Origin: a virus
IMG/VR virus record: IMGVR_UViG_3300020055_000005
Location: 87,190 to 151,189 of that record
Direction: 5' to 3' (one strand)
Length of the DNA: 64,000 bases
Shown here: positions 10,869 through 55,046 of the stretch, piece after piece
Layout: each line of letters opens with the position of its first letter
How positions within the stretch are numbered: the first letter of the stretch is position 1
Notes under the pieces: generated by a model
The model's input: only the letters and a program-made list of their open reading frames with translations
Databases searched by the model: none
What the model was told of the DNA's origin: nothing
Translations under genes and position numbers: made by a program

Positions 10869-11364
10869 TCTTTTTCACTTCCACACCAATACCTTCTTGT
10901 CCATCAGGTAGTGTTACATTACGATAATATACGATGACTTCTCCTAGTTCTCTGATGTATCTGCGAATCTCTTGCATGTTTGCAGACATCATTTCGTAGT
11001 CACCTATTGTGGTTGCAACAAATACTACGTCACCACCATTTAGTTTCTTCATGTCATCTAAGAACCTGTCTAAGTATGTATAACCCTCAGGCCACTCAGG
11101 ATATTCTCTGTCTTCAGGTAGACATGTCTTAGGTCTCTTCATAGACCCATCATCCTGTAATCTCTTGATACATGGATTAGCAATAATTGCTTCTGATACC
11201 ACATACCATTTTGGAGTTTGTAGATTAATGTCTCTTGGTAGTGTAGGTTGAATTATATCAATCTGTACAGGTTTTGTTACTATTTCAACTTGTTTAGTTC
11301 CAAGTAGTGAACACCCACTAATCGCTATTAGTAGTGTCGAGAGCGCTAATGTTTTTGCTATCAT
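10849..11364 (-). CDS. Outer-membrane lipoprotein, possible o-spanin (171 aa)
   Basis: Signal peptide with lipobox LIAISGC (Cys18). It starts inside the 3' end of the upstream single-span coiled-coil gene (47-base overlap), the usual layout of Rz/Rz1-type spanin pairs that fuse inner and outer membranes at lysis. It is longer than most Rz1 proteins, so this is a contextual inference. Confidence 0.5.
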   Translation of the reverse strand: MIAKTLALSTLLIAISGCSLLGTKQVEIVTKPVQIDIIQPTLPRDINLQTPKWYVVSEAIIANPCIKRLQDDGSMKRPKTCLPEDREYPEWPEGYTYLDRFLDDMKKLNGGDVVFVATTIGDYEMMSANMQEIRRYIRELGEVIVYYRNVTLPDGQEGIGVEVKKNETKSD

Positions 11365-11698
11365 TCTCTATATCCTCAAATACTGCCTTGGTACCATTAT
11401 TTACTCTTGTTTCAATCAGGCCTGGTTTTACCAATGCAAGTTTATCTAAATTATGTTTTCGAAAGATTTCCAAATACTGGTCTTTCTCTGCCTCGATTCG
11501 TGCATTTGCACGTTGTAAGTTCTGTAGGGATACTCCTTGTTTCTCATACGATTCTTTCATCGCATTAAAGGCTGCCTTTTGTTCTTCTACTGCGAATTCC
11601 AACTTGACGTTGTTTGCTGTTAACGTTTGATTTTCATTCCATAGGTACCAAGACCCCAGTCCTAGTACAAGAATGATTCCAATGAATAATTGGTTCAT
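11318..11698 (-). CDS. Single-span coiled-coil membrane protein, possible i-spanin (126 aa)
   Basis: N-terminal anchor (residues 3-20, FIGIILVLGLGSWYLW) followed by a heptad-like coiled coil to about residue 85. This is the Rz architecture (type II membrane protein with periplasmic coils). Paired with the overlapping lipoprotein gene. Confidence 0.5.
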   Translation of the reverse strand: MNQLFIGIILVLGLGSWYLWNENQTLTANNVKLEFAVEEQKAAFNAMKESYEKQGVSLQNLQRANARIEAEKDQYLEIFRKHNLDKLALVKPGLIETRVNNGTKAVFEDIENDSKNISALDTTNSD

Positions 11699-11937
11699 AA
11701 CTCTTCTCCATATTCATAGTCTTCTATGATATAATTCAGTCCTGCAGAACTTCTATACTCTACGATCTTACCTTCCTCAGTTCTGAACTTTAGATGTTTT
11801 TCTTTCTGCACTAATACCTTTTTAGTGACGTATGTACGATCATCAGAATCACCCCACTCTTTATTGAATGATACTGTGACCTTATATCGTGTGGTAAATA
11901 GGGACTTCACCCATAACCAAAATTTTTTCATATTCAC
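11695..11937 (-). CDS. Hypothetical protein (80 aa)
   Basis: Basic N-terminus (MNMKKFWLWVKSLF) then beta-rich sequence with an acidic end. Coupled to the spanin-like gene by ATGA. Preceded by a hairpin terminator, so it opens this operon. Not recognised. Confidence 0.5.
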   Translation of the reverse strand: MNMKKFWLWVKSLFTTRYKVTVSFNKEWGDSDDRTYVTKKVLVQKEKHLKFRTEEGKIVEYRSSAGLNYIIEDYEYGEEL

Positions 11938-11945
11938 CTCATGTG

Positions 11946-11972
11946 CGAAAAGACAGGATTAAGTCCTGTCTT
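11946..11972 (-). terminator. Hairpin terminator
   Basis: Perfect 9-bp stem AAGACAGGA/TCCTGTCTT with a 5-base loop, followed on the minus strand by TTTT. Separates the HAD gene from the 11937 operon. Confidence 0.6.
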
Positions 11973-11992
11973 ATTATATATGGTTCTAAAAT

Positions 11993-12057
11993 GAGAAACG
12001 GTAATGCAGGGGGCTACTCTTCCTGCTCGTTCCTAGGTACCACTCTTACCGTTTCTC
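11993..12057. other. Long stem-loop at the 3' end of the HAD gene
   Basis: GAGAAACGGTAA (11993-12004) and TTACCGTTTCTC (12046-12057) pair perfectly over 12 bp. A GCAGG/CCTGC inner stem lies in the 41-base loop. One arm is inside the last codons of the HAD gene. It may protect the transcript end or be a second terminator. Confidence 0.6.
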
Positions 12058-12545
12058 AAACCTTTTAGTATATTTATAGTCTTTTCTGCACTCTCATGGA
12101 TGATTCCGATACCACCTGCATCTTCCCATGCTTTGATGTTCTTTGGTCTATCATCAATAAGGACACTACCTTTCTCTGCAAATGCAGCTTTTTGACTACC
12201 ACTGTAAGTACAAGTCACAACCACTGTAGGGTCGATATACTTTCTTACCCACTTGTTCTTATCATACACTACTAACTCTCTGTTCACTTTACCAGCAGCA
12301 GTTAGTATCTCCCAAGGAACACCAGTGTGTTTGATGTATCCTATGAGGTCTGCATAATCGACCATTGGAGGTAATAGTCCAAATAGTCTTTTGTTAGTTA
12401 ATTCTTCTTTCCTGAGGTCATACTCAGAATGACCAGCGTCATCACTGGTTAATGGTTTACCCAACATTTCACTGCATCCTGCAAGGAAATCGGCAACCAC
12501 TCCGTCCATATCGACGAAGATTCTTTTCACTACTTTATTTTCCAT
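12033..12545 (-). CDS. HAD-family 5'(3')-deoxyribonucleotidase-like phosphatase (170 aa)
   Basis: FVDMDGVVADFLAG (about 8-21) is HAD motif I of the NT5C family, EILTAAG is motif II and VLIDDRPKNIKAW motif III/IV. NT5C enzymes dephosphorylate (deoxy)nucleoside monophosphates. The start MENKVVKRI lies exactly at the +1 of the 12552-12581 promoter, so the mRNA should be leaderless. Confidence 0.75.
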   Translation of the reverse strand: MENKVVKRIFVDMDGVVADFLAGCSEMLGKPLTSDDAGHSEYDLRKEELTNKRLFGLLPPMVDYADLIGYIKHTGVPWEILTAAGKVNRELVVYDKNKWVRKYIDPTVVVTCTYSGSQKAAFAEKGSVLIDDRPKNIKAWEDAGGIGIIHESAEKTINILKGLRNGKSGT

Positions 12546-12551
12546 ACTGTT

Positions 12552-12581
12552 AGTATAGTGCATTTTGGGTAGCTTTGTCAA
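12552..12581 (-). promoter_or_regulatory. Sigma70-type early promoter
   Basis: TTGACA (12576-12581), 18-bp spacer, TATACT (12552-12557). ATG at predicted +1 (12545). Confidence 0.8.
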
Positions 12582-12594
12582 GCTTTTTTAACAC

Positions 12595-13020
12595 TTATTT
12601 TACCCAAAACATGTCGTGAATTAACTCCTCTTTTTTGTATGCTTCCAGTTCCCATGGTTGTCGTGAGTATGGTTTATGCACCACATTGTGGGCTTTCCAG
12701 TTACGACATGTAGGTGATAATTCACCCTTCAGAAACTGTTTTGCATGAATTAATTCATGTGCAAGTGTCAACATCATCTGATCAAGTGTCAAATTACCCT
12801 TGAATATCTCAATCTCTACGTTGTGTTTATCACCTAAACAGTAACCATAGACATCACCATCTAATCCTTTCTTAAATGAGATATCAATGACTACATTTCG
12901 ACGTAATCGTGGCATAAAATAATGCAACACGTTACGTACATACTTCGTTATACGTTTCTTGTCTCGGATTTGTCCGTGGAAATCAACATGGATATTGTCA
13001 AAGTATATCTTCTTCGTCAT
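12595..13020 (-). CDS. SprT-like zinc metallopeptidase (141 aa)
   Basis: TLAHELIHAKQFL (about 84-96) carries the HExxH zinc motif, and QPWELEAY downstream provides a Glu-rich segment as in SprT-like/WLM peptidases. No signal peptide, so cytoplasmic. Overlaps the upstream zinc-ribbon gene by 23 bases. Substrate unknown. Confidence 0.65.
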   Translation of the reverse strand: MTKKIYFDNIHVDFHGQIRDKKRITKYVRNVLHYFMPRLRRNVVIDISFKKGLDGDVYGYCLGDKHNVEIEIFKGNLTLDQMMLTLAHELIHAKQFLKGELSPTCRNWKAHNVVHKPYSRQPWELEAYKKEELIHDMFWVK

Positions 13021-13192
13021 GTTCTAATTCACTTTCCTCTTCGTCATCGTAAATAACTTCACCACATAATGGACAGAATTCAACAGGAGGTAACTCCTCC
13101 TCATATTCATGATTTGTAGTGTCTAATTTAATTTTCAGTTCCATATCTAGATCACAATGATCGCAATACAGTTGTATGTTCTTAGTCGTCAT
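12998..13192 (-). CDS. Small zinc-ribbon protein (64 aa)
   Basis: CDHCDL near residue 10 and CPLCGEV near residue 40 make a CxxC...CxxC ribbon; the C-terminus is acidic (EEESELEHDEED). May be a partner of the following peptidase. Not further recognised. Confidence 0.55.
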   Translation of the reverse strand: MTTKNIQLYCDHCDLDMELKIKLDTTNHEYEEELPPVEFCPLCGEVIYDDEEESELEHDEEDIL

Positions 13193-13451
13193 AATTGGGT
13201 ACGTAATCGTCTCTCGCTAGTCCAGTCTTGACAATGATTTTATCCCATAGAGATTCAAATGATTTCTTTTGACCATCTAATACTGCATAGGGAAGTGGAT
13301 GTTTTGCATCTGACTCAGAGAAGTCTAATCCTGCAGTATATACCCTTACCTCTTGAAACTCCCTATCGATCATTCGAAATAGATGCACCCATCTAGCACA
13401 GATCACGTCTTGTTTGTCTTTAGAGGGTAAGTATAACTTATATGTACGCAC
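13182..13451 (-). CDS. Hypothetical protein (89 aa), start uncertain
   Basis: The longest frame begins with GTG inside the spacer of a good promoter (13430-13459), so a transcript from that promoter could not use it; readthrough from the glutaredoxin operon or a later start is needed. No domain recognised. Confidence 0.5.
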   Translation of the reverse strand: MRTYKLYLPSKDKQDVICARWVHLFRMIDREFQEVRVYTAGLDFSESDAKHPLPYAVLDGQKKSFESLWDKIIVKTGLARDDYVPNYDD

Positions 13452-13459
13452 AATGTCAA
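13430..13459 (-). promoter_or_regulatory. Sigma70-type promoter
   Basis: TTGACA (13454-13459), 18-bp spacer, TATACT (13430-13435), overlapping the first codons of the 13182-13451 frame. Confidence 0.65.
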
Positions 13460-13481
13460 GCTCTTTTATTTTCGTTTAAAA

Positions 13482-13724
13482 TCAGATGGTTATGTCACCA
13501 ATCTGACTGTCTGACCACTCTTTGAGCTCAGTATAACCCCCAATATTGACCTCATCTACCCTAATTTGGGGAAATGTACGTGCAGTTGGGAAGGTTTCAA
13601 ACAACTCTTCAGTGGTAAAATCTGTACCTAAGGACAGGTACGAATATGCATATCCTTTCTGTTCGCATAATGCTTTTGCTTTGTCACAAAAAGGACACTG
13701 TGGTTTTCCGTATATTTCTATCAT
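13482..13724 (-). CDS. Glutaredoxin (80 aa)
   Basis: YGKPQCPFCDKAK contains the CPFC redox centre and TFPQIRVDEVNIGGYTEL has the cis-Pro and GG motifs of the glutaredoxin fold. It most likely supplies electrons to the phage ribonucleotide reductase encoded next door (NrdC role). The C-terminal Leu-Lys-Glu-Trp region is normal in length. Confidence 0.9.
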   Translation of the reverse strand: MIEIYGKPQCPFCDKAKALCEQKGYAYSYLSLGTDFTTEELFETFPTARTFPQIRVDEVNIGGYTELKEWSDSQIGDITI

Positions 13725-13933
13725 AGTTTTATTGCCAGTAATATGAAAATACCCATCAAGATTAGATTAGTTGTTGCAATCAGAATACCTAAAATGGTGT
13801 GATACCAAATCCATCTAGTCTTGTAAGCATTTTCGATTGTTAATTCATCAGGGTCAGGAGATTTCTCTGCAACCTTTCGTATTGCATCATCCTCTTCCTT
13901 AGACCCCCATAATATTTCGTGCCATTTTCTCAT
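13721..13933 (-). CDS. Small membrane protein (70 aa)
   Basis: Soluble charged N-terminal half (KEEDDAIRKVAEKSPDPDE) and one or two C-terminal hydrophobic helices (about 43-69). Overlaps both the glutaredoxin start and the nrdB stop, so it is embedded in the reductase operon. Function unknown. Confidence 0.55.
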   Translation of the reverse strand: MRKWHEILWGSKEEDDAIRKVAEKSPDPDELTIENAYKTRWIWYHTILGILIATTNLILMGIFILLAIKL

Positions 13934-15027
13934 AATTTAAAGTCTGCAAAAGTGTCATCTGACACATCTTGTTTAATACCACCAATCACATAAGATTCAA
14001 TCTCTGTCTCTTGTGGTGCATTCTGTAGTCCTCTACTGTTGAACCAGTGTTTAGTCCATGGTAAAGGGTTATTTGTTGAAGAGATATCATAGATAGGATT
14101 TAGTCCTATTGCACGTAATCTCTTATTACAAATATATTCTATATATTGATTCAACAAAGGCACACTTAGTCCAATCATAGAACCATTCTTAAATAAGAAC
14201 TCAGCCCATTCCTTTTCTTGACTGACTGCATTCTCATATAATTCGTAAACTTCTTTCTCACAATCCTTCATGACCTTGTTCATGAGTTTATCGTTCTCAT
14301 GGTTCTTGTAACACTTCAGAATGTGTTGTGACACTGCAAGGTGTTGTGATTCGTCTCTTGCAATGAAAGATATAATCTTTGCACTACCTTCCATCAGTTT
14401 CAGTTCTCCGAATCCAAATGAACATGCAAAAGAGACGAAGAATCGTATACCTTCTAGGATATTAACTGAGATAAGTGCAAGGTATAATGCCTTATATAAG
14501 TCATAGTCATCGACCTTGAGTCCTAGTAACCTTCTTCGTCCCAATGCAATAAACTCGTCGTACTTTTCTGTTACCATTTCTGCACGTTTTACAATTGCAG
14601 GTTCATCTAAGATAGTGTCAAAGATGTCACTAGGGTCTGCATATACATTCTTAATAATATGTGTATATGATCTACTATGGATTGTCTCCATGAAGTCCCA
14701 TGTGATAATGCAAGACTCTAGTTCAGGTAAGGACACAAAGGGTAAAAATGCTATGGAGGGCGCCCTTCCCTGAACAGAATCAAGAAGTGTTTGATATCTC
14801 AGGTTTGATGTAAAAATATGTTTTTGTGCATCATTCAGAGTTGCGTAATCAGACCTGTCTTTTTGTAATGACACTTCTTCAGGTCTCCAAAAGAAACCTA
14901 ATTGTGTTTGTGTTAGTTTATCAAATATAGGGTATTTGAACTCATCAAATCTTTGAGTGTTCAAAGGTTCACCAAAGAATATCTTTTGTTTGGTGAAGTC
15001 TACATTCTTTTTGTTAAAAACTGTCAT
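13930..15027 (-). CDS. nrdB: Ribonucleotide reductase, class I beta (small) subunit (365 aa)
   Basis: Diiron ligands are visible in CIITWDFMETIHSRSYTHII and ISFIARDESQHLAVSQHIL, the E...ExxH...E...ExxH pattern of NrdB. The length is normal. It generates the radical used by NrdA to make deoxynucleotides from host ribonucleotides for phage DNA synthesis. Part of an operon nrdA - oxygenase - small gene - nrdB - glutaredoxin. Confidence 0.95.
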   Translation of the reverse strand: MTVFNKKNVDFTKQKIFFGEPLNTQRFDEFKYPIFDKLTQTQLGFFWRPEEVSLQKDRSDYATLNDAQKHIFTSNLRYQTLLDSVQGRAPSIAFLPFVSLPELESCIITWDFMETIHSRSYTHIIKNVYADPSDIFDTILDEPAIVKRAEMVTEKYDEFIALGRRRLLGLKVDDYDLYKALYLALISVNILEGIRFFVSFACSFGFGELKLMEGSAKIISFIARDESQHLAVSQHILKCYKNHENDKLMNKVMKDCEKEVYELYENAVSQEKEWAEFLFKNGSMIGLSVPLLNQYIEYICNKRLRAIGLNPIYDISSTNNPLPWTKHWFNSRGLQNAPQETEIESYVIGGIKQDVSDDTFADFKL

Positions 15028-15187
15028 ATCCTAAGTCCTTGTACTTCTTCGCAAGTTTTTCTGCTCTTTCTTTTGTTTCTCTTCTAAAACTTACTTCTTG
15101 TCCGTTATAAAATTCAGTGATAGTGTAACGTCTAGAATTCTCATTTGGAATAATAGACACTTGATGGCCTTCGCATTCAAAAATCAT
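15014..15187 (-). CDS. Hypothetical protein (57 aa)
   Basis: Coupled upstream by ATGA and overlapping the nrdB start by 14 bases. The sequence NSRRYTITEFYNGQEV then RETKERAEKLAKKYKDLG suggests a small beta-hairpin plus helix. Not recognised. Confidence 0.6.
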   Translation of the reverse strand: MIFECEGHQVSIIPNENSRRYTITEFYNGQEVSFRRETKERAEKLAKKYKDLGYDSF

Positions 15188-16167
15188 TTCTTCTCCTTCG
15201 GTTCAAATTGCACAAGATGGTCATAGTTATTACAGTAATCACCTTTCTTTCCTTTGGTATCTCTATATAATCCATTATCCCACCATTTAATAAAATCTAT
15301 GAATTTCTTTCTTCTATCTGCAGACTCATCGATGTTTGTCTCATATCTGTTCTTTCTACCATCGTATTCTAACACGATGTGCTCACCAGCAATCTTGTCT
15401 TCAGGCATATACGTTGCACCATCTATCATTCCTATTTTAGAATGTTGATGAAAGAAATGCACAAAGATGTGATAACTATAATCACCTAGTAATCTATCTC
15501 TCCAGTGTGGTATGTTAGGGCCTTGATATAATAATATATCACCAACTTCTAGTTCAACACACTTTGCACCGTTTTCAATTCTCTTACGTGGACTGACACC
15601 CTGTGTTATTTCAACTAATTTTTTGTTATCTTCGAAGTCAATATAGTCCTGATCATTCTGTACCCATATCTTCCATGGTTTACCATCATCAGTATGATAG
15701 TCTAAACAAAGTGTCGCACTGATTTCACATGAAGGTCTATCAGTATGTGAAGTTAATATTGCACCTCTGTCATACTTACGTGTGTAAGAGTAAGTTTCTT
15801 TTAGGTTCATGTCTATAACATCAGTCAACCTATCTCTGATATATCTGTGTAATGCAACTGCCCATGGTGTGCAGTAACCACCCTTAGATTTGTTTATCGC
15901 ATCATCAGGTGTCATGTGAGTGATATCTTTTTCTTCACGATACATGATTGCACTGTCCCAATTCTCATTCTGTTCGACAGTTTTCCATGCATCAAGTGTC
16001 ATGTTGATAATTTCTTTAGGGATAAAATTACGTAAAACTACGTATCTGTCTTTCCACAATGCCCATGTCTCAGGAGTTGTTTTACCTGATACTTTTTTAC
16101 CACCCTTTTCATTTCCATAGGGATGATGTATATAATTTACTGTTCGCTTTTCAAATGGTATAGTCAT
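15184..16167 (-). CDS. 2OG-Fe(II) oxygenase-like protein (327 aa)
   Basis: ILTSHTDRPSCEISATLCLDY gives the HxD-type motif and LYQGPNIPHWRDRL the distal His and Arg, the layout of a prolyl-hydroxylase/phytanoyl-type DSBH enzyme. Lies between nrdA and nrdB, which is unusual; whether it acts on nucleotides or DNA bases cannot be told. Fourth clear oxygenase in 8 kb. Confidence 0.65.
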   Translation of the reverse strand: MTIPFEKRTVNYIHHPYGNEKGGKKVSGKTTPETWALWKDRYVVLRNFIPKEIINMTLDAWKTVEQNENWDSAIMYREEKDITHMTPDDAINKSKGGYCTPWAVALHRYIRDRLTDVIDMNLKETYSYTRKYDRGAILTSHTDRPSCEISATLCLDYHTDDGKPWKIWVQNDQDYIDFEDNKKLVEITQGVSPRKRIENGAKCVELEVGDILLYQGPNIPHWRDRLLGDYSYHIFVHFFHQHSKIGMIDGATYMPEDKIAGEHIVLEYDGRKNRYETNIDESADRRKKFIDFIKWWDNGLYRDTKGKKGDYCNNYDHLVQFEPKEKK

Positions 16168-30192: not shown

Positions 30193-31494
30193 CTACTTCT
30201 TTTTTGCATCTAACTCTGCCTGTTTCCATTCAAGTGCTTTCTTGTTTGCAGGGAATGAACTTGACCATCCCATCATCTTACCATACAATGCATTAACCTT
30301 TTTCTTTAAAGCTGCATGATCATCATCATTTACAATCTCTATAAAGTTTTTACCAAATAACTTTTTAAACCCATTAACGTTCTTTTGTGATGCATTCCAA
30401 TCTTTCTCTACAACTTCCTTTGGAAGTTTTCTTGCACGTTCATCATTTCTTGCCTGTGCAAACTCTAATGAAGTGTTAACGAATACCATTTTGTATTCGT
30501 AACCTGCATTGTCTAATAACTTCTTATAGTTTTTAATCTTGGATGCCTTTGCACCTGTAGTGTCAAATATCATTCCGAGTCTACCTCTGATATACGCACT
30601 CATGTTTTTTGCAGTAATCTCTTTTGCACGTGCTCTGATTGGGTCTCTAAGTTCTGCATCCATGTTTCTCAAGTCAAGACCAAGTCCTGCCTTTTTCAGA
30701 CCAGTCTCAAATGCCTTGTCAGTGTTTACAATCTTCAATCCTAATGCAGTCAATCCTAGTTCACTAACAACTGTTGATTTACCTGAACCAGGCCCACCCA
30801 TCAAGAACACTGCCTTGAAGATGCCTGGGTCATACACACCCTCTTGTATTAAGTCTTCTACCATGTATTTTGGTGCAGAGTATAAGTCTTCTGTTAGACC
30901 CATTCCCTTACGTATTGCTTTATATAATTTCTGTGCATGACGTTTACCAGTAGAAGGAACCCCATCTTTGAATGAGTCGAAGTCACCCTTCTCTGCGAAT
31001 GCTCTCATTTTAGATGCACTCATTCCTGATACATCGTCGGCGTCAGGGTCACGATCACCTGCAGATATAACTTGAATCTCATCAAATTTATAGAAACCGT
31101 GACGACCTTTCACCGAATTATACTTGTTAATGATAGTGTCAAACTCTCTAATTCTATCTGAACCTACGACCATTCTAATCTTAGTGTAACCTTTATCGTG
31201 TAAGAATGTTAGGATTTGAAAAATCTGTTTTACATCTGCATCGACAACATTTACCTTCTTACCAAAGAATGCACGTAAAAATTTAATTTTATCTTTGTGC
31301 GATAAAGGATTCTTAATCTTATCGTTTGAATGTGATGAAAACAATAATGCATCACCATATCCTTTTGCAACTTTGTTTAACTTATCAACTAATTTTTCGT
31401 GACCGTTTGTAGGAGGATTAAATCGACCAAAGGTGAACACTGCACCTTTTCCTTTTGCCTCTGATAACCACGATGTAAATGTTTTATTTGGCAT
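30193..31494 (-). CDS. Fusion of nucleotidylyltransferase and P-loop kinase domains (433 aa)
   Basis: Residues 17-180: FTFGRFNPPTNGHEKLV is the (H/T)xGH motif of the cytidylyl/NMN-adenylyltransferase fold, with SGMSASKMR matching the second ISSTxxR-like motif. Residues 228-400: FLMGGPGSGKST Walker A, IVNTDKAFE and a kinase-like lid, resembling zeta-toxin/polynucleotide-kinase-like enzymes. The layout parallels NadR-type two-domain proteins, but the order and the late-cluster location are unusual. Substrate unknown. Confidence 0.75.
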   Translation of the reverse strand: MPNKTFTSWLSEAKGKGAVFTFGRFNPPTNGHEKLVDKLNKVAKGYGDALLFSSHSNDKIKNPLSHKDKIKFLRAFFGKKVNVVDADVKQIFQILTFLHDKGYTKIRMVVGSDRIREFDTIINKYNSVKGRHGFYKFDEIQVISAGDRDPDADDVSGMSASKMRAFAEKGDFDSFKDGVPSTGKRHAQKLYKAIRKGMGLTEDLYSAPKYMVEDLIQEGVYDPGIFKAVFLMGGPGSGKSTVVSELGLTALGLKIVNTDKAFETGLKKAGLGLDLRNMDAELRDPIRARAKEITAKNMSAYIRGRLGMIFDTTGAKASKIKNYKKLLDNAGYEYKMVFVNTSLEFAQARNDERARKLPKEVVEKDWNASQKNVNGFKKLFGKNFIEIVNDDDHAALKKKVNALYGKMMGWSSSFPANKKALEWKQAELDAKKK

Positions 31495-46901: not shown

Positions 46902-47180
46902 TTATCTCTTATTACAAGTACCTTTTACTCTATCAAGAACTTGCATGTTATTATGGACAACCATTGAAGTTAAAAGTATTGGTGCATACAAGTCTTCGTT
47001 TGTAATAGTCACTGCTTCGTGAATTGCACTATAAGAAGGAATAAGAATTACACTCTTTAAAAATAACATTTCACCTAATGTTGGTATACGAGGCAAAAGT
47101 GGATTCAATTCATAAACACAATCATATTGCATACCTTTAGATGTTGACCAAACATCTGCAAGTTGTAATGCAACAAACAC
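46902..47180 (-). CDS. Membrane protein (92 aa), probable GTG start
   Basis: The real gene probably starts at GTG (VFVALQLADVWSTSKGM) with AGAGG eight bases upstream; the longer frame would run inside the cyclase in another frame. Hydrophobic segments occur at about 2-10, 37-50 and 60-72, with NPLLPRIP between, as in small DUF5658-like membrane proteins. Follows the cyclase and may be its partner. Confidence 0.5.
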   Translation of the reverse strand: MFVALQLADVWSTSKGMQYDCVYELNPLLPRIPTLGEMLFLKSVILIPSYSAIHEAVTITNEDLYAPILLTSMVVHNNMQVLDRVKGTCNKR

Positions 47181-47208
47181 TGCCCATACCTCTATATCTG
47201 CTGGTTCT

Positions 47209-49050
47209 CTAAACTGTATATATGGTAACTTTTTCGGATTTTCCCTTAACAAGGATTCTATCGACTTCTGTAAATGCTGTTGATGGACATAATCTATAAG
47301 TTCTTTCCGATAACAACACTCGTACCCCATCATAATTTCTTGTTTGACCTTCGAGTCTAGCTCCCAAGTTGACGGCATCTCCAATGACGGAATAGTCAAA
47401 TCTAAGTTCTGACCCCATGTTTCCAACGATGCACTCACCTGTAGAGATGCCGATACCGACATCAATAGAAGGAAGACCTTCAACTTCAAGTTCCTTAATA
47501 AGTTCATCCGCCTTAACCGAAATTTCTTGGGCACTTTTTACTGCCATCTCTGCGTGATCTTCACAGTCCAAGGGAGCATTCCAAAATGCCATGATACAAT
47601 CGCCCATGTATTTGTCGATGGTTCCTCCATTCGACAATATTATTTTTGTCATGGTATCAAGGTATTTATTAATTAACATAACTAACCCTTCAGGGTCATC
47701 ATTATTCTTATAGTGTTCTGATATTGGAGTGAACCCACAGATATCCATAAAGAGGAATGTCATTTCTTTTCTCTGACCACCTAACACTAGCATGTCAGGA
47801 TTATCCTGTAGTTGTTTGACCATCTCAGGAGATAAATACTTTTGGAACTGTTTTCTAATCTGTTCCTTGAGTTGAAATGTCACATAGTATTTGTTATATG
47901 ATGCATGTCCAAAAACAATCAAGGAGGCGATTGATGAGTAGAAAGTATCGAAAAGAACGAGACTTGAAGACCACAAATAGAAACCCCCACCCACCTGAAA
48001 TCCTACAACACCTAGACTCCCTAGAGCCGCAAAAGTTGTGGGAAGTTTGTAGACCATTACCAACACTAATATCAGAACTATCAGAAGAAGAACAACTTCT
48101 AGAAATTCAAGATAGTAGGATTGTTGTATTTGAGCTTCTTGCAAGACGGTTTGGAGGATTGAGGCTTGAACTTCGTGGGGATACATTGTACCCACTGGAG
48201 TTGAAACTGGATTATTCAGACCTTCCGCTGTCAGACCCCAAATCAGAATCTTATTCTGTACATCACTAGAAGGTAAATCTACTGCAGATATTCTTTCGAA
48301 ATCATGCCAATAGGAAATCATAATATCTCCTGTTGGTGTGGTTTCGATAGGAGGTTGTCTCCCCATTCTAATCCATTCTATACCGACTTCCTGTGTAACT
48401 CTTGTTTGATAATTGGGCTGATCATAAAATGCACGTAGTGTCTCTAACACTATAGATGGATATATCTGATCATTTGCAGTAACGATTAGTGGTGCAGAAC
48501 GAACTGTTCCGTCAAAGTTTGGTGTTCCTGCGAATGGTGGTGTTGCAGTTGTTACTCCTACACCATAAGTGTTATCCTGTAAGATAGGAAGTGGTGCAAC
48601 GATTCCTGTAAAGTTCCATACACTATCTTTGATATCTCCACCCCCAAATATAGAAGTGTTAACAAAAGGTGCAGAACCTTTTTGTATTTGTGCAGATGGA
48701 GCTGCAGATAGAATTGTCAACCGATTGATTAATCCTTCGGCGAACATCTCATCTTCGCTGGCGTCTCGGTCAGGTTTACTGAATAATTGTGTAAATACGT
48801 GAGTGTTAGTGTAATGAGTGTCTAAGAGGATATCCCTGTAGATACTACGTTTGATTGGATACTGTCCATACACTTCAAGTGTCTTTTCATCAATATCTAC
48901 TAAAACAATATTCTCCGTCGCCAGGCGTTCTTGAGTCTGATGTAAGAAGTCGAACCATGACCACTGGATATTTTCAACAACGTATGGTGACCAAACCTTC
49001 AGTCCGACCAATAGTGAAATGGTCACTAAGACTGTTTTCCAACTATACAT
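47209..49050 (-). CDS. CHASE2-domain class III adenylate/guanylate cyclase (613 aa)
   Basis: Residues 5-24 are a membrane anchor, about 28-310 a periplasmic CHASE2 sensor (NIVLVDIDEKTLEVYGQYP, VRSAPLIV), 316-387 three more helices, and 400-613 the cyclase domain. All catalytic residues are present: metal ligands D436 (FMDICGF) and D484 (KYMGDC), base-selecting K480, and N561/R565 (VNLGARLEG). The Lys suggests ATP as substrate. Class III cyclases make cAMP or cGMP as dimers. It lies downstream of curli-like and FecR genes in the same operon, overlapping the 49050 gene by one base. Confidence 0.9.
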   Translation of the reverse strand: MYSWKTVLVTISLLVGLKVWSPYVVENIQWSWFDFLHQTQERLATENIVLVDIDEKTLEVYGQYPIKRSIYRDILLDTHYTNTHVFTQLFSKPDRDASEDEMFAEGLINRLTILSAAPSAQIQKGSAPFVNTSIFGGGDIKDSVWNFTGIVAPLPILQDNTYGVGVTTATPPFAGTPNFDGTVRSAPLIVTANDQIYPSIVLETLRAFYDQPNYQTRVTQEVGIEWIRMGRQPPIETTPTGDIMISYWHDFERISAVDLPSSDVQNKILIWGLTAEGLNNPVSTPVGTMYPHEVQASILQTVLQEAQIQQSYYLEFLEVVLLLIVLILVLVMVYKLPTTFAALGSLGVVGFQVGGGFYLWSSSLVLFDTFYSSIASLIVFGHASYNKYYVTFQLKEQIRKQFQKYLSPEMVKQLQDNPDMLVLGGQRKEMTFLFMDICGFTPISEHYKNNDDPEGLVMLINKYLDTMTKIILSNGGTIDKYMGDCIMAFWNAPLDCEDHAEMAVKSAQEISVKADELIKELEVEGLPSIDVGIGISTGECIVGNMGSELRFDYSVIGDAVNLGARLEGQTRNYDGVRVLLSERTYRLCPSTAFTEVDRILVKGKSEKVTIYTV

Positions 49051-49307
49051 TATGAAAATTTCTTTTGAATATATTTAAAAATTGCGTAGATTGATAATCC
49101 GTAAAATGCAAGTACGGACATTGGTATACCGATATATGCAAGTTCCCATGGTGATAAAAATAAAATCTCCCATGCAAAGTTTGATGCAGCTTCCACATCA
49201 CCCATTGCTTCAGGCATTGCAATATCATTCTCTACAAATAGGTCTAAAATCTCATCGTATTCTTCTTCGGTGAGACATTCATAAAACTCAGGAGGACACT
49301 CTGTCAT
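49050..49307 (-). CDS. Single-span membrane protein (85 aa)
   Basis: Acidic N-terminal half (CPPEFYECLTEEEYDEILDL) and one helix (about 57-78) with a basic end, so the acidic part is likely periplasmic. Located between a curlin-like gene and the cyclase. No family recognised. Confidence 0.6.
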   Translation of the reverse strand: MTECPPEFYECLTEEEYDEILDLFVENDIAMPEAMGDVEAASNFAWEILFLSPWELAYIGIPMSVLAFYGLSIYAIFKYIQKKFS

Positions 49308-50138
49308 TTAGTTTCCCTGAGTTACATTTACAGTGCATCCACCTACGGTGTGACATGTTTGTGTTAATGAATATGTTTGATTAGTGTCACCTGTTTGAGT
49401 CAGAGTTAAATCCGTCCCATAGGTTCCACCTAGTGTTATGGTTGCAGTATGAGCTCCAGTCTTTTTCTGAACAACATGTACTTCATTGTTATCGTTATTG
49501 ATTGTTCCTGTGAGTGTCTTGTTTCCGTTCTGCAATTGTTTTGAGAAGACATCGTTGTAGTCACCATAAATGTTCCAAGTCATGGAATGAGTTATACTAC
49601 TTGAATCTTGTTTCTGACTTCCTTTAAAGTCATTGTAGTCACCATGAATATCTAATCTTACAAAGTTCCCACCAGGCTCTGTTCCATCATAATCCCAAGT
49701 AGGTGTAAGTGAGTTATTAAGTTCATACCCTTGACCAAAGACAACTTGATTGTAATTACCTTGAATGTGGAATTGGAAATCATTGTCATTACATGTTGCA
49801 AAGGAACATCTTTGTCTGATTTCTATATCGTTGTCTTGTCCGTCTAAGTCTCCACCCCAATTATAACCTGAACCCCATGCATCAGTATATCCAATGTACA
49901 TGTTGTTACCTTTTTGAGCTAACTTTATAGTGTTGTCTTGATGATCAAAAGAAAAGAGAACTGTATTTGCAAAACCTTGTTGTGTTACATCTAAATCTAA
50001 ATTATCACCACTATTAACTTGTCTGATATCTATTGAGTTATCGTCTGCGTGGACGACACCAATAAAAAGGATGAATGGCGCCCAAGGCGCCACCCAGTAC
50101 TTGTAAAATAAACGTTTTATTTTATTTAAAAAATCCAT
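49308..50138 (-). CDS. Curlin-repeat-like secreted protein B (276 aa)
   Basis: Signal peptide with long N-region (FYKYWVAPWAPFILFIGVVHA) and cleavage before DDNSI. The mature chain is a series of Asn/Gln/Gly-rich beta strand-turn units such as NSIDIRQVNSGDNLDLDVTQ, QDNDIEIRQ, GDYNDFKGSQKQ and TVNVTQGN, the pattern of CsgA/CsgB curlin repeats. Probably exported through the CsgG-like pore. The start overlaps the 50126 gene in another frame. Confidence 0.7.
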   Translation of the reverse strand: MDFLNKIKRLFYKYWVAPWAPFILFIGVVHADDNSIDIRQVNSGDNLDLDVTQQGFANTVLFSFDHQDNTIKLAQKGNNMYIGYTDAWGSGYNWGGDLDGQDNDIEIRQRCSFATCNDNDFQFHIQGNYNQVVFGQGYELNNSLTPTWDYDGTEPGGNFVRLDIHGDYNDFKGSQKQDSSSITHSMTWNIYGDYNDVFSKQLQNGNKTLTGTINNDNNEVHVVQKKTGAHTATITLGGTYGTDLTLTQTGDTNQTYSLTQTCHTVGGCTVNVTQGN

Positions 50139-50272
50139 GCTAATAATAATCCCAAAACTAGACCTTTTGTGAATGAAATCCACATTGCATGGTACTCTGT
50201 AATTCCAAGTGATTGAATCCACTTGTAACTCCAGTTCTCATGCCAGTCAAGAAGTTTTCTTAAATTATCCAT
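50126..50272 (-). CDS. Small membrane protein (48 aa)
   Basis: MDNLRKLLDWHENWSYKWIQ then one hydrophobic span (MWISFTKGLVLGLLLAWIF) at the very C-terminus. GGAGAC ribosome site upstream. The last 13 bases are also the first codons of the next gene (ATGGATTTTTTAA). Confidence 0.55.
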   Translation of the reverse strand: MDNLRKLLDWHENWSYKWIQSLGITEYHAMWISFTKGLVLGLLLAWIF

Positions 50273-50298
50273 ATAAGTCTCCTAAGTTCCTTTACTAT

Positions 50299-51444
50299 TT
50301 AGTTAGTTTGATTTATAAAAATCTCGATTGCTGGGTCTCCGTTACCGAATTCGATAACACCCTGATAGCCTTCGACATACGTATCTATAAATCCTGAATT
50401 CCCATTCTGTATGATTATCTCAATAACACCGTTTACATTACGATAAAAATATAAGTCTCCGTCTTGTACAAAGACATTGTATTGTGAATCTTTATTGAAT
50501 CCCATAACTGCACCTTTAAGTGTAACAGTTCCACCACCTGAGTCTGCCTGCACATCTTTCAGTGCGACTGTTGTTCTTGTTAACTCTTCTACTACATCTA
50601 ATAGGTCAGTAAGGAAATCAACATCTAATAAATCTATGTCTAATTCTGAAAACTCTAAATCTTCTTTAGTGTCTTCTAATGCATCTTGTTCTAATTCATT
50701 AAACTCAAGGAAATCTACATCTAGTATTCCTTGATCTTGGTCTTGGTCATCTGCAACTTGGTCTTCAATTGCTTGTTTGATTTCTGTAGGTGGATTGACG
50801 ATAAACATATTGTCAATCAATGCAGGTGTGATACCATTTATAACTACAGATGATGTTGGTGGACTATCCAAAGACGATACCATAGTTGCTTGATACGCCT
50901 CATTGAGTGTCACTTCTCCACCTAAGTTTGACACTACTATTTCACCTGATGCATCTCCGTTTGCATCTGGCAAAAGTATAACGAGTGACCTTCCGATCTC
51001 ATCAATACTCGTTGTAAAATCTGTTCCGTTGATTGCGATTTGTGCCGTAGGTGTTGACACATTGATATTTTTCTTTCTGATTTTTTGACCTGTACCTGAT
51101 GCAAATCGAGCTGTACCTTGCACCATTCTGATTGACATTTTGGATAGGTCAGGGTTTGGGTCATAATATGCTTCATCGATATAGACCCTAGTCTGTTCAG
51201 TCATATCAATAAACTCGTTATCCAGTAGAACTATTTTCATTCTACCATTACCAGTTCTTGCCTCATCATAGAGGATGACATCACTACCGACTGAATGTGG
51301 ATATGACTCTGTACCACGTAGGAGTTCACCCACTCCTGTTGATTCTACAATGTCACCAATGGGGTCATTTGCATGAACCCCACTGATAAACAACAAACTA
51401 AGAATCGTTAGCTGAGTCTTTCTGATTAATTTGAATGATCGCAT
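50299..51444 (-). CDS. FecR-domain secreted protein (381 aa)
   Basis: Signal peptide (TILSLLFISGVHA|ND), then a FecR domain: MKIVLLDNEFIDMTEQTRVY, IRMVQGTARFASG, ISVxTPTA-type segment (NINVSTPTAQIAINGTDFTT), EIVVSNLGGEVTLN. C-terminal half is acidic and coiled. In bacteria, FecR-domain proteins often neighbour CHASE2 cyclases. Here they share an operon, suggesting a periplasmic sensing or scaffold role. The start MRSFKLIRK overlaps the preceding gene by 47 bases. Confidence 0.75.
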   Translation of the reverse strand: MRSFKLIRKTQLTILSLLFISGVHANDPIGDIVESTGVGELLRGTESYPHSVGSDVILYDEARTGNGRMKIVLLDNEFIDMTEQTRVYIDEAYYDPNPDLSKMSIRMVQGTARFASGTGQKIRKKNINVSTPTAQIAINGTDFTTSIDEIGRSLVILLPDANGDASGEIVVSNLGGEVTLNEAYQATMVSSLDSPPTSSVVINGITPALIDNMFIVNPPTEIKQAIEDQVADDQDQDQGILDVDFLEFNELEQDALEDTKEDLEFSELDIDLLDVDFLTDLLDVVEELTRTTVALKDVQADSGGGTVTLKGAVMGFNKDSQYNVFVQDGDLYFYRNVNGVIEIIIQNGNSGFIDTYVEGYQGVIEFGNGDPAIEIFINQTN

Positions 51445-52138
51445 TGTCACTCGTAATGTCAAGTGTTAAGATTGATGTAGGTGATGAACAACCTGATGCA
51501 CCTGAAGGACAGGTACCTGTTAATTGGTTAATATCTACATCTGCACTATCCCCATCAAGTGTAAAAGTAAGTGATGAGTCACTTGCATCATTTTGTAAAG
51601 TATTAATATTGTTTGAGGAACCAGTGACATCAAAATTCCATGTCAGGTTGTCTGCCTCCCAATCAATATCAAAAACATTCGAACTACCGATCAATATTAG
51701 ATCGGCGTCTAAAGATTCTGCGCTAGTAACATAACCTTGGTCGATATCAAAAGTATTAGAACTTCCAGTTACGTCAAAATTAATGTTAGAGCTATCTGCA
51801 CTGCCGAGATAACCGATGTTCCAATCTATTGAGTTAGAATCTCCAGTGAAGTCCAACTTATAGTATGAACTATCTGCAACAACTGGCCCGAATAGGACGT
51901 TGTTGTTGCCTGTAAAATCTAAATCAAACTCTAATGTTGCACCTGTGATACTCATTGTACTTGATACTGAACCTGAGGAACCATTGTCCCCACCGATTTT
52001 GTTACCAAAACCAACTTGGTCAATATAAAGTTTCAAAGTGTCACCAGTTTGAGTGATCTTAATTTCGTTATCATCAGTGGCTTGTGCGAAAACGAATCCA
52101 GTCGACATTAATAAAATTAAACTAATTAGTTTCTTCAT
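51398..52138 (-). CDS. Curlin-repeat-like secreted protein A (246 aa)
   Basis: Signal peptide MKKLISLILLMSTGFVFA|QATDD. Mature chain of short beta units: NEIKITQTGDTLKLYIDQVG, GNNNVLFG, GDSNSIDWNIG, SSNTFDIDQG, SSNNINTLQND, INQKDSANDS, with regular SN/GSSN turns and I-D/N-Q positions. Typical curlin-type amyloid subunit, with more Asp than CsgA. It overlaps the csgG-like gene end. Confidence 0.7.
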   Translation of the reverse strand: MKKLISLILLMSTGFVFAQATDDNEIKITQTGDTLKLYIDQVGFGNKIGGDNGSSGSVSSTMSITGATLEFDLDFTGNNNVLFGPVVADSSYYKLDFTGDSNSIDWNIGYLGSADSSNINFDVTGSSNTFDIDQGYVTSAESLDADLILIGSSNVFDIDWEADNLTWNFDVTGSSNNINTLQNDASDSSLTFTLDGDSADVDINQLTGTCPSGASGCSSPTSILTLDITSDNAIIQINQKDSANDS

Positions 52139-53033
52139 TTTCGTTATACCCTTTTATTTTCCAAAAACCCCTATGGTGTCCTTGGTAGATTAATTCCAAC
52201 ACTGCAGCCTCAATCGCTGTTCGTGTTGCGTAAGTCACTGATTCATTATTACCCACACCGTCTTCAATCTCTATAAGTTGGGTTCCTTGTTCGACGAATC
52301 TAAAAACATCGCCTCCTGAACCGTAACTCAAAAGAGTTTTCCGAGTTTGTACATTTAGTAAAACTTCTCCAGTGAGAACACTTACTGCTCTCATAGAAAT
52401 TGTGACAACATCTTGTCGATACTGTCTCGAATAACCAATGCCGAGGGTTCTTGCGCCTGTTCCCCCAGTTTTAATATTGGTATCATAGCCAATTATACCA
52501 CCCTCTATTATCATTCCTGCGAACAATAGAGGTTGAATTCCTTTAGGGTCATCCCCTGTTGCAGATGCATACTCCTGTCTTGCAGAACGTATGATCTGTC
52601 TCTCTCTTATTAATGCATCAATTCCATTTCTTTCTACAACACGAAACCATGTTCCGTCTCCTGCAGTTTTTAATGCATCGATAACCATCTCTACTCCACC
52701 TTGTGTTACGGCAGTTGAGAATGATGCAATGTTATCAACAGACTTTCTTTGTCCTGTTTTGTCTAAAAAATTATAGACAGTTACAATTGGTCTCTCTTCT
52801 GCAGGTGGTAGTTTTAAAAGTTCCAAGTAGGAAGGTAACCTAACTACCTGTGGACTTTCTACGCAAATGTATCTACGTGTAACCTGTTTTGCAACACCTG
52901 TAACTACGTCTTTACCAAACCCTTCATCGAACCTACCTGTTTCATAGGCACAGTCTGCTGGGTTATCAGACCACTTTGGGACTGATGCACATCCACTTAT
53001 AAGAAGTGTTAATGCAAGTAAATACTTAACCAT
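52122..53033 (-). CDS. csgG: CsgG-like curli secretion pore lipoprotein (303 aa)
   Basis: Lipobox LLISGCASVP, then VTVYNFLDKTGQRKSVDN, a VEMVIDALKTAGDGTWFRVV-ERNGIDALIRERQ block and GIQPLLFAGMIIEGGIIGYD ... RQDVVTISMRAVSVLTGEVL, all matching CsgG. CsgG forms a nonameric outer-membrane channel for curlin export. The start (MVKYLLAL) overlaps the CsgF stop. Slightly longer than E. coli CsgG because of the N-terminal insert. Confidence 0.92.
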   Translation of the reverse strand: MVKYLLALTLLISGCASVPKWSDNPADCAYETGRFDEGFGKDVVTGVAKQVTRRYICVESPQVVRLPSYLELLKLPPAEERPIVTVYNFLDKTGQRKSVDNIASFSTAVTQGGVEMVIDALKTAGDGTWFRVVERNGIDALIRERQIIRSARQEYASATGDDPKGIQPLLFAGMIIEGGIIGYDTNIKTGGTGARTLGIGYSRQYRQDVVTISMRAVSVLTGEVLLNVQTRKTLLSYGSGGDVFRFVEQGTQLIEIEDGVGNNESVTYATRTAIEAAVLELIYQGHHRGFWKIKGYNENEETN

Positions 53034-53535
53034 CTCCACCACCAGTGTCAGGGTCTTGTCCAAAGTTTCCTGTTCCTACTGGTATCTCAATGACTGTTGT
53101 TGTTCCTTCGGTATCGATAATAGTCATTTTGATAACATCAGTTCCGTCTGCGTTAGTTATTACCTCCCATGTAATAACACTTCCTTCAAGCGTAAATGAC
53201 CCAAAGTTTGATGCAGTATCATTACTAAACATTGATTCAACTAACTGTTTAGATAGCTGTGCGTAAATTCTCGATTCTAAATTTCTGATAAATTTTGCAA
53301 GCGTGGTATTGTCCGCTTCTCTTTCTGCGGCCTTCCTTGCCGCCTCCAAGGCATCCTCTATTTGTTTCTTCCTTGAGAACTCTTGGTTCTCAATAGTCAA
53401 ATAATGGGCACCTGTACCGACCCCACTAAAGCTGGGGTTCTTAAATCCAAATTTAATTTCGTCTGCATAAACGTTTTGTGCATGTAAGAACAAAACGAAT
53501 ATAATTGCACTACTTACTAATACTTTTTTTAACAT
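53026..53535 (-). CDS. csgF: CsgF-like curli assembly factor (169 aa)
   Basis: Signal peptide (FVLFLHAQNVYA|DE) and the mature N-terminus IKFGFKNPSFSGVGTGAHYL, equivalent to the E. coli CsgF segment FQFRNPNFGG that plugs CsgG. The C-terminal end is Gly/Asp-rich. CsgF anchors the nucleator at the cell surface. No CsgE-like gene is seen. Confidence 0.9.
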   Translation of the reverse strand: MLKKVLVSSAIIFVLFLHAQNVYADEIKFGFKNPSFSGVGTGAHYLTIENQEFSRKKQIEDALEAARKAAEREADNTTLAKFIRNLESRIYAQLSKQLVESMFSNDTASNFGSFTLEGSVITWEVITNADGTDVIKMTIIDTEGTTTVIEIPVGTGNFGQDPDTGGGDG

Positions 53536-53812
53536 TCTTTTTCACCCCTTTCAATAGGGCGTCCTCTTCTATTTTCTCTTTCATTCTGTATTCTAAGACT
53601 ACGTTAACTTTTTGTTGAAGTCTAATCATGTCTTGATCTAACATCCTAGTTTGATCAATAACACGTATCAATGCAATGTGCATCTTTTCAATTTCAGGTT
53701 CTATTCTTTCAGAGATAAACTTCCAAATGAAGAAGATAAAATACCCCATACCAACACTCATGACAACAGGAAAACCGTAATCTTTAATTAGGTTTGCTAT
53801 ATCTAAATCCAT
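53510..53812 (-). CDS. Single-span membrane protein, paralogue 1 (100 aa)
   Basis: LIKDYGFPVVMSVGMGYFIF membrane segment (about 8-32) then a long charged coil. It shares the order 'D..[FT]P..M..GMG.FIFF' and a following coil ending in LEYR/LELR with the 53835 gene, so the two are paralogues. Overlaps csgF by 26 bases. Possibly membrane anchor or holin-like. Confidence 0.6.
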   Translation of the reverse strand: MDLDIANLIKDYGFPVVMSVGMGYFIFFIWKFISERIEPEIEKMHIALIRVIDQTRMLDQDMIRLQQKVNVVLEYRMKEKIEEDALLKGVKKNVKKSISK

Positions 53813-53834
53813 TGTCCGTGTGTCCTATGCGCTA

Positions 53835-54128
53835 TTAGTCTCTCCTCACGTCGAGTTTACCGTCTTCTATGAAGTTTTCTGATCGTGAGATTCTATCGAT
53901 ATCAGGTCTCAATTCTAATGCAGATGAGACTAACATGTCTATCTTAATCATTTCGTTTGACATTGTTCTTGCTCGGTTCTCTAAACTTTCACAGAACATG
54001 GTAAGCGTTTTTATATCGTCTACTATACCTTCAAGGATTTGTTTGAGTACGATAAAAATGAAGACACCCATCACAATTGCCATTGCGATAGGAGTTCCCA
54101 CGTCAGTTATCAAGTCAAACATTTCCAT
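53835..54128 (-). CDS. Single-span membrane protein, paralogue 2 (97 aa), possibly leaderless
   Basis: MEMFDLITDVGTPIAMAIVM then FIFIVLKQILE and a charged coil. The ATG lies five bases after CATAAATA, the T4-style late +1. First gene of the apparent curli operon. Not recognised as a named family. Confidence 0.6.
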   Translation of the reverse strand: MEMFDLITDVGTPIAMAIVMGVFIFIVLKQILEGIVDDIKTLTMFCESLENRARTMSNEMIKIDMLVSSALELRPDIDRISRSENFIEDGKLDVRRD

Positions 54129-54133
54129 ACGAT

Positions 54134-54141
54134 TATTTATG
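54134..54141 (-). promoter_or_regulatory. Late-type promoter box CATAAATA
   Basis: One mismatch to TATAAATA, five bases before ATG 54128. Probably the main start for the curli-like/cyclase operon. Confidence 0.55.
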
Positions 54142-54179: not shown

Positions 54180-55046
54180 TCAGAAATTTGAAATGAGGTC
54201 TACGAACCTTTTTTCGGAGTTTGAGTTACCCACTTCTTCTGCAATAACAGGGAAGTCATACGGCCCAAAGTTCTCATAGGTGAGAGAGATTGTAGGTGCG
54301 GCTGCATTGATTGCCATATCTGCCCTATGTTGAGGGTCACCATATCTTACACCATCAACTTTAACCCAACAATTTGCATAGTAAGGAACTCTGTTTTTTG
54401 CGTAAGACATGATAGTTCCTTGGGTATCGTTTGGCATATACCCTGCACCAACAGTAAATGTAGGTGTCTCATCTCTAGTATGTGCAAGTCCTAATTGATG
54501 ACCTATCTCATGTGCAAAAATATATTCAGTTGAAGTGTCTTGGTCAGGGTCAATGGTTGCGATATCATTCTTAGAATAACATGCAGTCATCCCTGCAGTC
54601 ATACCTTCACCTTTCCATGGCCACCCTGCACCACAAACTTCCCAGTCCTGAGTGTTATCAAGCATGACATGAACCATATCTGCCTCATACTTATCAACCA
54701 ACCATGCCTTTTCATAGAATGGTGAGTACTGATGCCAGTCTTCTAAGTCATATGCGAGTTCGATATTACCCAACTCATCATAAGTGTTTTCAATATCTAC
54801 AGGTTCTACAAATGCAGCTTCCATGTGGATTTGGATTCCATTCAATGCGAAGATTTCATTTAGTTGACGAATGTAACCGAACACTCTACGACTATCCATT
54901 CTATCATCAACATATACACCCAGTCGAATTACGTTCATACCAGGCCTGTATACCATTTCGAAATCAGAGTAATTGGTTTCCATACCAATACAGTTTTCAT
55001 AATTGACTACATCACATTCGATGTAATCTGCTTCAATATAGTCCAT
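54180..55046 (-). CDS. Metzincin-type zinc metalloprotease (288 aa)
   Basis: AHEIGHQLGLAHTRDE (about 177-192) is the HExxHxxGxxH zinc motif and GTIMSYAKNR the Met-turn, so it belongs to the metzincins (reprolysin/M12-like). No signal peptide is seen, and eight Cys-free acidic residues precede it. It may be a virion or late lytic protease, or process curlin-like proteins encoded immediately downstream. Its own promoter region follows a terminator. Confidence 0.8.
   Translation of the reverse strand: MDYIEADYIECDVVNYENCIGMETNYSDFEMVYRPGMNVIRLGVYVDDRMDSRRVFGYIRQLNEIFALNGIQIHMEAAFVEPVDIENTYDELGNIELAYDLEDWHQYSPFYEKAWLVDKYEADMVHVMLDNTQDWEVCGAGWPWKGEGMTAGMTACYSKNDIATIDPDQDTSTEYIFAHEIGHQLGLAHTRDETPTFTVGAGYMPNDTQGTIMSYAKNRVPYYANCWVKVDGVRYGDPQHRADMAINAAAPTISLTYENFGPYDFPVIAEEVGNSNSEKRFVDLISNF

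Follow-up and report, generated by a model that had tools for sequence, protein, structure and literature searches.

Gene content of the operon

The present study concerns a curli-type operon in a 64,000-nucleotide stretch of viral DNA (the window), which covers positions 87,190 to 151,189 of the 151,189-base virus record IMGVR_UViG_3300020055_000005. The record is that of a T4-like virus with a family B polymerase, a gp44-type clamp loader and ribonucleotide reductase; its DNA polymerase is 48% identical to those of cyanophages and gives no host assignment. The operon is made up of ten closely packed minus-strand genes running from the ATG at 54128 to position 46902, and most neighbours overlap or abut (Table 1). 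It joins the curli secretion proteins CsgF and CsgG to two curlin-like secreted proteins, a FecR-domain protein and a CHASE2 class III adenylate cyclase. An earlier note, made from the DNA letters alone, had named these genes together with the small membrane proteins, and all of them were found on the minus strand between 46902 and 54141. Its list left out the DUF5658-like gene at the end of the run, which has a weak Pfam match.

Table 1. Features of the operon in the order of transcription (window positions)
Feature	Position	Strand	Evidence and remarks
T4-type late promoter (N)ATAAATA	54134..54140	-	heads operon, 12 nt before first start codon; conserved in relatives
Small membrane protein 1, 97 aa, one transmembrane (TM) helix then coiled coil	53835..54128	-	phrog_18771 6e-26; TM prediction
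Small membrane protein 2, 100 aa, one TM helix then coiled coil	53510..53812	-	phrog_18771 1.6e-24
CsgF, predicted Sec-type signal	53026..53535	-	PF10614 2.5e-14
CsgG outer-membrane secretion pore, lipoprotein	52122..53063	-	PF03783 1e-50; solved CsgG chains 1e-47
Curlin-like secreted protein 1	51398..52138	-	PF07012 3.6e-5; AlphaFold2 mean pLDDT 82
FecR-domain protein	50299..51462	-	PF04773 8e-11; model matches PupR cell-surface-signalling domain
Curlin-like secreted protein 2	49308..50222	-	PF07012 7e-4, just under Pfam cut-off
85-aa single-TM protein	49050..49307	-	TM prediction
CHASE2 class III adenylate cyclase	47209..49050	-	CHASE2 PF05226 6e-29; Guanylate_cyc PF00211 8e-19
DUF5658-like gene, overlaps cyclase 3' end	46902..47222	-	PF18902 9.5e-4, under cut-off

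The true start of CsgG may sit downstream of a TTG; the FecR gene likely starts at the ATG at 51444 and the gene for curlin-like protein 2 at the ATG at 50138.

Clusters of csgF and csgG have been described in pelagimyophages (Zaragoza-Solas 2020, PMC7029224). For the curli locus of phage Melnitz, in which csgA/B were believed absent, a lysis pore was proposed (Buchholz 2022, PMC9004378). The earlier note's account of the literature, in which curli clusters of unknown function were all that was on record, is outdated, since Wittmers et al. 2022 (PMC9599517) described CsgF-CsgG-CsgA/B-FecR-CsgA/B-adenylate cyclase plus an 'HK' in marine myo- and podophages, and reported transfer of the module between the two. 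The combination of curli export, FecR and cyclase is already published, and this virus is a further member. New here are the strictness of the co-inheritance, a possible cellular source, and the observation that SAR11, the host group known best, has no recognisable enzyme for cyclic AMP (cAMP) and hardly any recognisable receptor for it.

The pelagiphage module of Wittmers 2022 has the same genes in the same order as the window and, like it, no CsgE; the 85-aa TM gene and the DUF5658-like gene are additional in the window virus. The gene order is also that of HTVC008M (KC465899) and Methylophilales phage Melnitz (MZ577095), which align with the window at 48% and 41% identity in CsgG and at 40% and 33% in the cyclase. 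With csgBAC/csgDEFG of Escherichia coli the window has in common the CsgG and CsgF families and two curlin-type secreted proteins. In contrast to that system it has no match to CsgC or CsgE, it adds FecR and the cyclase, and its curlin repeats are degenerate.

Co-inheritance and the late promoter

Viral loci were gathered with three CsgG queries and one cyclase query, each giving its best 80 matches, and distant variants are under-sampled. The viral CsgG set comprised 223 loci (114 clusters at 95% CsgG identity), and profiles built on the genes of the window were run against their six-frame open reading frames. It was found that FecR follows csgG in every locus with room for it (139/139), and that the pair of curlin-like genes is present in 68 of 68 such loci. 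The cyclase is present in all 65 loci that have at least 6.5 kb downstream, which was taken as room for it. Four of these 65 (L408-L411) have the cyclase relocated upstream of the operon, yet retained. In the reverse test, CsgG lay upstream of 45 of the 46 viral CHASE2 cyclases. The lone cyclase locus without CsgG, L370, is rearranged and carries a curlin-like gene, inverted small TM genes and no CsgG in 15.7 kb. Relatives that carry csgGF without the cyclase or FecR were looked for and not seen among the loci with room. Podophage modules without the cyclase are on record, and FecR and cyclase are said there to be 'not always' present (Wittmers 2022, PMC9599517), whereas both are universal here in loci with room.

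Among 50,697 phage records, HTVC008M and strains of Melnitz are the only ones that have both CsgG and a CHASE2 cyclase. The other cyclase match in these records, CAKLQH020000011.1 (L295), is filed under Acinetobacter phage MD-2021a and was rejected, as bacterial housekeeping genes surround it. A 1.5-kb Salmonella 'phage' record also gave a CsgG match.

The late promoter of T4-like cyanophages is NATAAATA (PMC2984593). The late-type promoter that had been placed at 54134 is well supported by the relatives: of 122 distinct relatives, 101 have ATAAATA in the 150 nt that precede the operon head, where chance would give 0.055 per stretch, and in many listed relatives it stands directly after an apparent intrinsic terminator. 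Within the 64-kb window taken by itself the motif is no commoner than expected (17 occurrences against 18.5), and the promoter is taken as real because its position is conserved in relatives. When the operon head is read from the ATG at 54128, the distance from the motif to the start codon is also the commonest one (12 nt in 50/128). HTVC008M shows the same spacing before its tail/baseplate, DNA-end-protector and tape-measure genes. If initiation is T4-like, the 5' end of the operon mRNA would coincide with the AUG or lie close to it. The 12-nt spacing recurs at several late genes of HTVC008M and in the window, which suggests that late mRNAs of this phage group are leaderless. Strict co-inheritance and one conserved late promoter at the head of the unit bear out the claim of a single module.

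The encoded proteins and a cellular relative

The signal peptides and TM helices of the module proteins are predicted. The two small membrane proteins at the head of the operon are paralogous, as had been claimed, both matching phrog_18771, and at least two copies are present in 149 of 151 viral loci. The coiled coil of the second carries an RMLD(Q/N)DxIRL motif. Their profile matched no Pfam family and no PDB homologue, its sole match being this unnamed PHROG. They are apparently the one or two 'HK' that Wittmers et al. 2022 place upstream of csgF, to which they correspond by position only. A Pfam search of 22 relatives gave no kinase domain at E<=0.1; at about 100 aa and with no such match they cannot be complete histidine kinases. 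We read the published label as a mislabel and not as a sign that these proteins stand outside the module.

CsgF has an NPxFxG motif at its mature N-terminus, found in 203 of 215 homologues, and had no match among PDB sequences by phmmer. A lipobox pattern is present in 208 of 219 CsgG homologues. CsgE and CsgC had been noted as missing, and neither was found over cut-off in eight virus records (one sub-threshold CsgE scrap, E 0.07).

The curlins CsgA and CsgB are recognised by multiple regular Q-G-N repeats of 18-24 residues. The two secreted proteins of the window have one Pfam repeat each, and a degenerate G-x-x-N spacing of mostly 22-28. The first is predicted to adopt a repetitive all-beta fold and has a repeat motif beyond that of shuffles; the second has a C-terminal Cys pair, and 23 of its 42 homologues match the curlin repeat. 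The proposal that both are curlin-like has sequence support that is weak to moderate. In HTVC008M the second curlin-like protein (L002 13704-15029) differs from that of the window in bearing a PA14 domain, which hints at the binding of glycans.

The FecR protein consists of a signal peptide, the FecR domain, an acidic linker and a C-terminal beta domain, and no second Pfam domain was found in it. Its model is best matched by the PupR cell-surface-signalling domain (E 1.4e-4). Iron sensing of the FecI/FecR type was rejected, as the protein begins with a signal peptide and has no cytoplasmic anti-sigma region, and the operon has no sigma factor.

The cyclase has a periplasmic CHASE2 domain between TM helices together with class III catalytic residues, and the scored ones are intact in the window (D443, K487, D491, S561, N568 and R572, 0-based index). 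Among 108 distinct cyclases, the viral ones and that of the cellular locus described below, no sequence departs from the two metal-binding Asp, the substrate Lys or the transition-state Arg. The catalytic Asn is kept in 105, which are those with every scored residue. It is Ser in Melnitz (L003), L370 and L404, which also have Asp at the specificity position. The invariant substrate Lys, with Ser, Thr or Asp at the second specificity position, fits an adenylate cyclase.

For comparison, 67 bacterial CsgG curli loci without viral features were examined, and neither FecR nor CHASE2 was found near CsgG in any of them. CHASE2 cyclases occur in 131 of 385 sampled alphaproteobacteria, and FecR lies within about 6.5 kb of 6 out of 20 alphaproteobacterial ones, against 0/67 of the curli loci (Fisher p about 1e-4, computed with 69 curli loci, two of them misbinned virus contigs). 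The pairing of FecR with CHASE2 exists elsewhere without curli. A Burkholderia biofilm operon encodes a FecR-LysM protein and a CHASE2 histidine kinase (PMC5192318), so that a periplasmic FecR stands beside a CHASE2 sensor as in the window, but the output is a kinase and the pathway as described has no curli genes. In Sinorhizobium the outer-membrane barrel NsrA signals to the CHASE2 cyclases CyaD1/CyaD2/CyaK (PMC13001267); the CRP-family receptor Clr is present there, and the pathway has no curli genes.

One cellular locus resembles the viral module. L090 is a 705-kb alphaproteobacterial contig of the metagenome-assembled genome (MAG) 'Hyphomonas sp. TMED17' (NHBW01000006.1), and at 9438-15461 it carries CsgF, CsgG, curlin, FecR and CHASE2 cyclase in that order. 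Genes for a TonB receptor, an FAA hydrolase and a 2OG oxygenase flank the locus, whose G+C content is similar to that of the flanks (52% G+C). It differs from the window module in its cellular neighbours, in the absence of small TM proteins and in having one long curlin (504 aa, clear 23-residue period). Its cyclase is sister to all viral cyclases (support 99 and 100), while the CsgG of L090 falls with the viral clade at weaker support (92). Among cellular loci, L090 is by these sequence comparisons the candidate for closest relative of the viral module, and it qualifies the published statement that FecR and adenylate cyclase are outside bacterial curli operons. A likely alphaproteobacterial origin of the phage module has been put forward (Wittmers 2022, PMC9599517). 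In a sample of 105 genomes of the TMED17 family the only close cyclase match was L090 itself, so transfer from virus to cell is possible. Four module-bearing virus contigs (L084, L088, L089, L101) are binned in bacterial MAGs labelled Sphingobacteriales, Saprospirales and Pelagibacter; naive searches would therefore report the viral module as bacterial curli.

Possible function of the module

Phages that carry curli genes are found widely in the ocean. Our best model, to which we give a probability of about 0.45, is that curlin is exported late through CsgG and CsgF and that a periplasmic relay of FecR and the CHASE2 cyclase monitors this export by way of cAMP. The block would be one late transcription unit whose products remodel the infected cell's envelope. 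CsgG and CsgF, going by their established biology, would form an outer-membrane pore, through which two curlin-derived repetitive beta proteins may reach the cell surface. The FecR protein would stay in the periplasm and report the state of the pore or of its cargo to the CHASE2 domain. The inner-membrane adenylate cyclase, for which a sensing role is suggested by CHASE2 biology, would then make cAMP and so couple export to a second-messenger signal. As to purpose, our guess is that late in infection the cell displays a layer that makes its surface adhesive or masks it, which could serve progeny retention, capture of neighbours or exclusion of competing phages. The amyloid of the earlier note, which would have to show as fibres that bind amyloid dyes, and the purposes put forward there (superinfection exclusion, host aggregation or adhesion, a virion-release aid) are conjectural.

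Several observations weigh against this model. The curlin identity of both secreted proteins, as judged from sequence, is marginal, and the predicted structure of the first had no significant structural match in the PDB. A contact of FecR with CHASE2 or CsgG is guessed. Cultures infected with Melnitz showed no clumping (PMC9004378). The proposed tie to a second messenger is favoured by the catalytic residues of the cyclases, but its receiving end was not found: a domain binding cyclic nucleotide monophosphates (cNMP) is absent from the virus record, from eight relatives and, which counts if the host is SAR11, from 137 of 147 SAR11-order genomes (the order of a Pelagibacter-labelled MAG). In the other 10 it occurs in an 870-aa protein, and the one match that was read has an acyltransferase-like region and looks like a protein of that type rather than CRP. 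No class III cyclase was found in the 147 genomes either. Either the receptor is of an unrecognised type, or the cyclase has a different task, or SAR11 is not the host. It could be that in SAR11-infecting relatives the phage brings a second messenger foreign to the uninfected host, which does not make it and, as far as known domains go, has no means of reading it; an undescribed receptor, perhaps one of the conserved small membrane proteins, would sense the cAMP and gate late export of surface proteins or release. This extension we regard as doubtful.

Among the alternatives, CsgG and CsgF could form a pore for the timing of lysis, a pinholin or gated secretin, with the other genes accessory, as was proposed for Melnitz from synteny and modelling (Buchholz 2022, PMC9004378). 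A function close to lysis would be in keeping with the late promoter and with the two small TM proteins that open the operon. However, the argument rested on the absence of csgA/B, and the curlin-like pair is never missing from loci with room. Moreover, CsgG is an outer-membrane lipoprotein whereas a holin acts on the inner membrane, and a sensor cyclase with conserved catalytic residues is left unexplained, which makes a lysis pore unlikely.

Surface display could also proceed with a FecR protein that does not signal but corks CsgG or retains its cargo, in place of CsgE. There is a similarity between the FecR domain and the domain by which the MpAFP adhesin is retained in the outer membrane (5ix9; root-mean-square deviation 1.2 over 64 columns, E 0.045; profile E 0.035). 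Both matches are weak and the PupR signalling domain is matched better; as the CHASE2 cyclase is again unaccounted for, such a cork seems improbable.

An independent role of the cyclase, in modulating host physiology or countering defence, with the curli genes only as linked cargo, draws on the PADLOC PycC models, which match the cyclase domain of the window (6.5e-25). This match shows a class III ancestry in common with defence cyclases, and identity with Pycsar was rejected, as the PycC models match the shared cyclase domain alone and the virus record has no cNMP-binding Pycsar effector. Against independence stand also the co-inheritance that outlasts rearrangement in L408-L411 and the specificity positions of an adenylate cyclase, and we hold it quite improbable. 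Import of nutrients or macromolecules through CsgG, with incidental curlin-like proteins (Zaragoza-Solas 2020, PMC7029224; Wittmers 2022, PMC9599517), gains something from the missing CsgE gate, by which the pore may be open, but late timing suits provisioning poorly, and the idea leaves unexplained why CsgF, the two curlin-like proteins, FecR and the cyclase are so strictly kept; we hold it very unlikely.

For the model of monitored curlin export, the co-inheritance, conserved catalysis, late promoter, candidate cellular relative and cAMP gap of SAR11 make the question of function directly testable. The questions raised are whether cAMP rises on infection, what binds it, and what is displayed on the surface of the infected cell.

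Some genes in and around the operon are less constant. The 85-aa single-TM gene was found in 13 of 58 viral loci and is restricted to some relatives, and the DUF5658-like gene in about half of them (32/58). Just upstream of the operon sits a gene for a metzincin-like metalloprotease (54180-55046). This gene and one for a 131-aa secreted protein upstream were considered as module members and rejected, as among the sampled loci they are present only in this virus and in L004, a near-identical contig whose CsgG is identical to that of the window. Elsewhere in the window, positions 30193-31494 encode a protein with an AAA_33 / zeta-toxin-like kinase domain.

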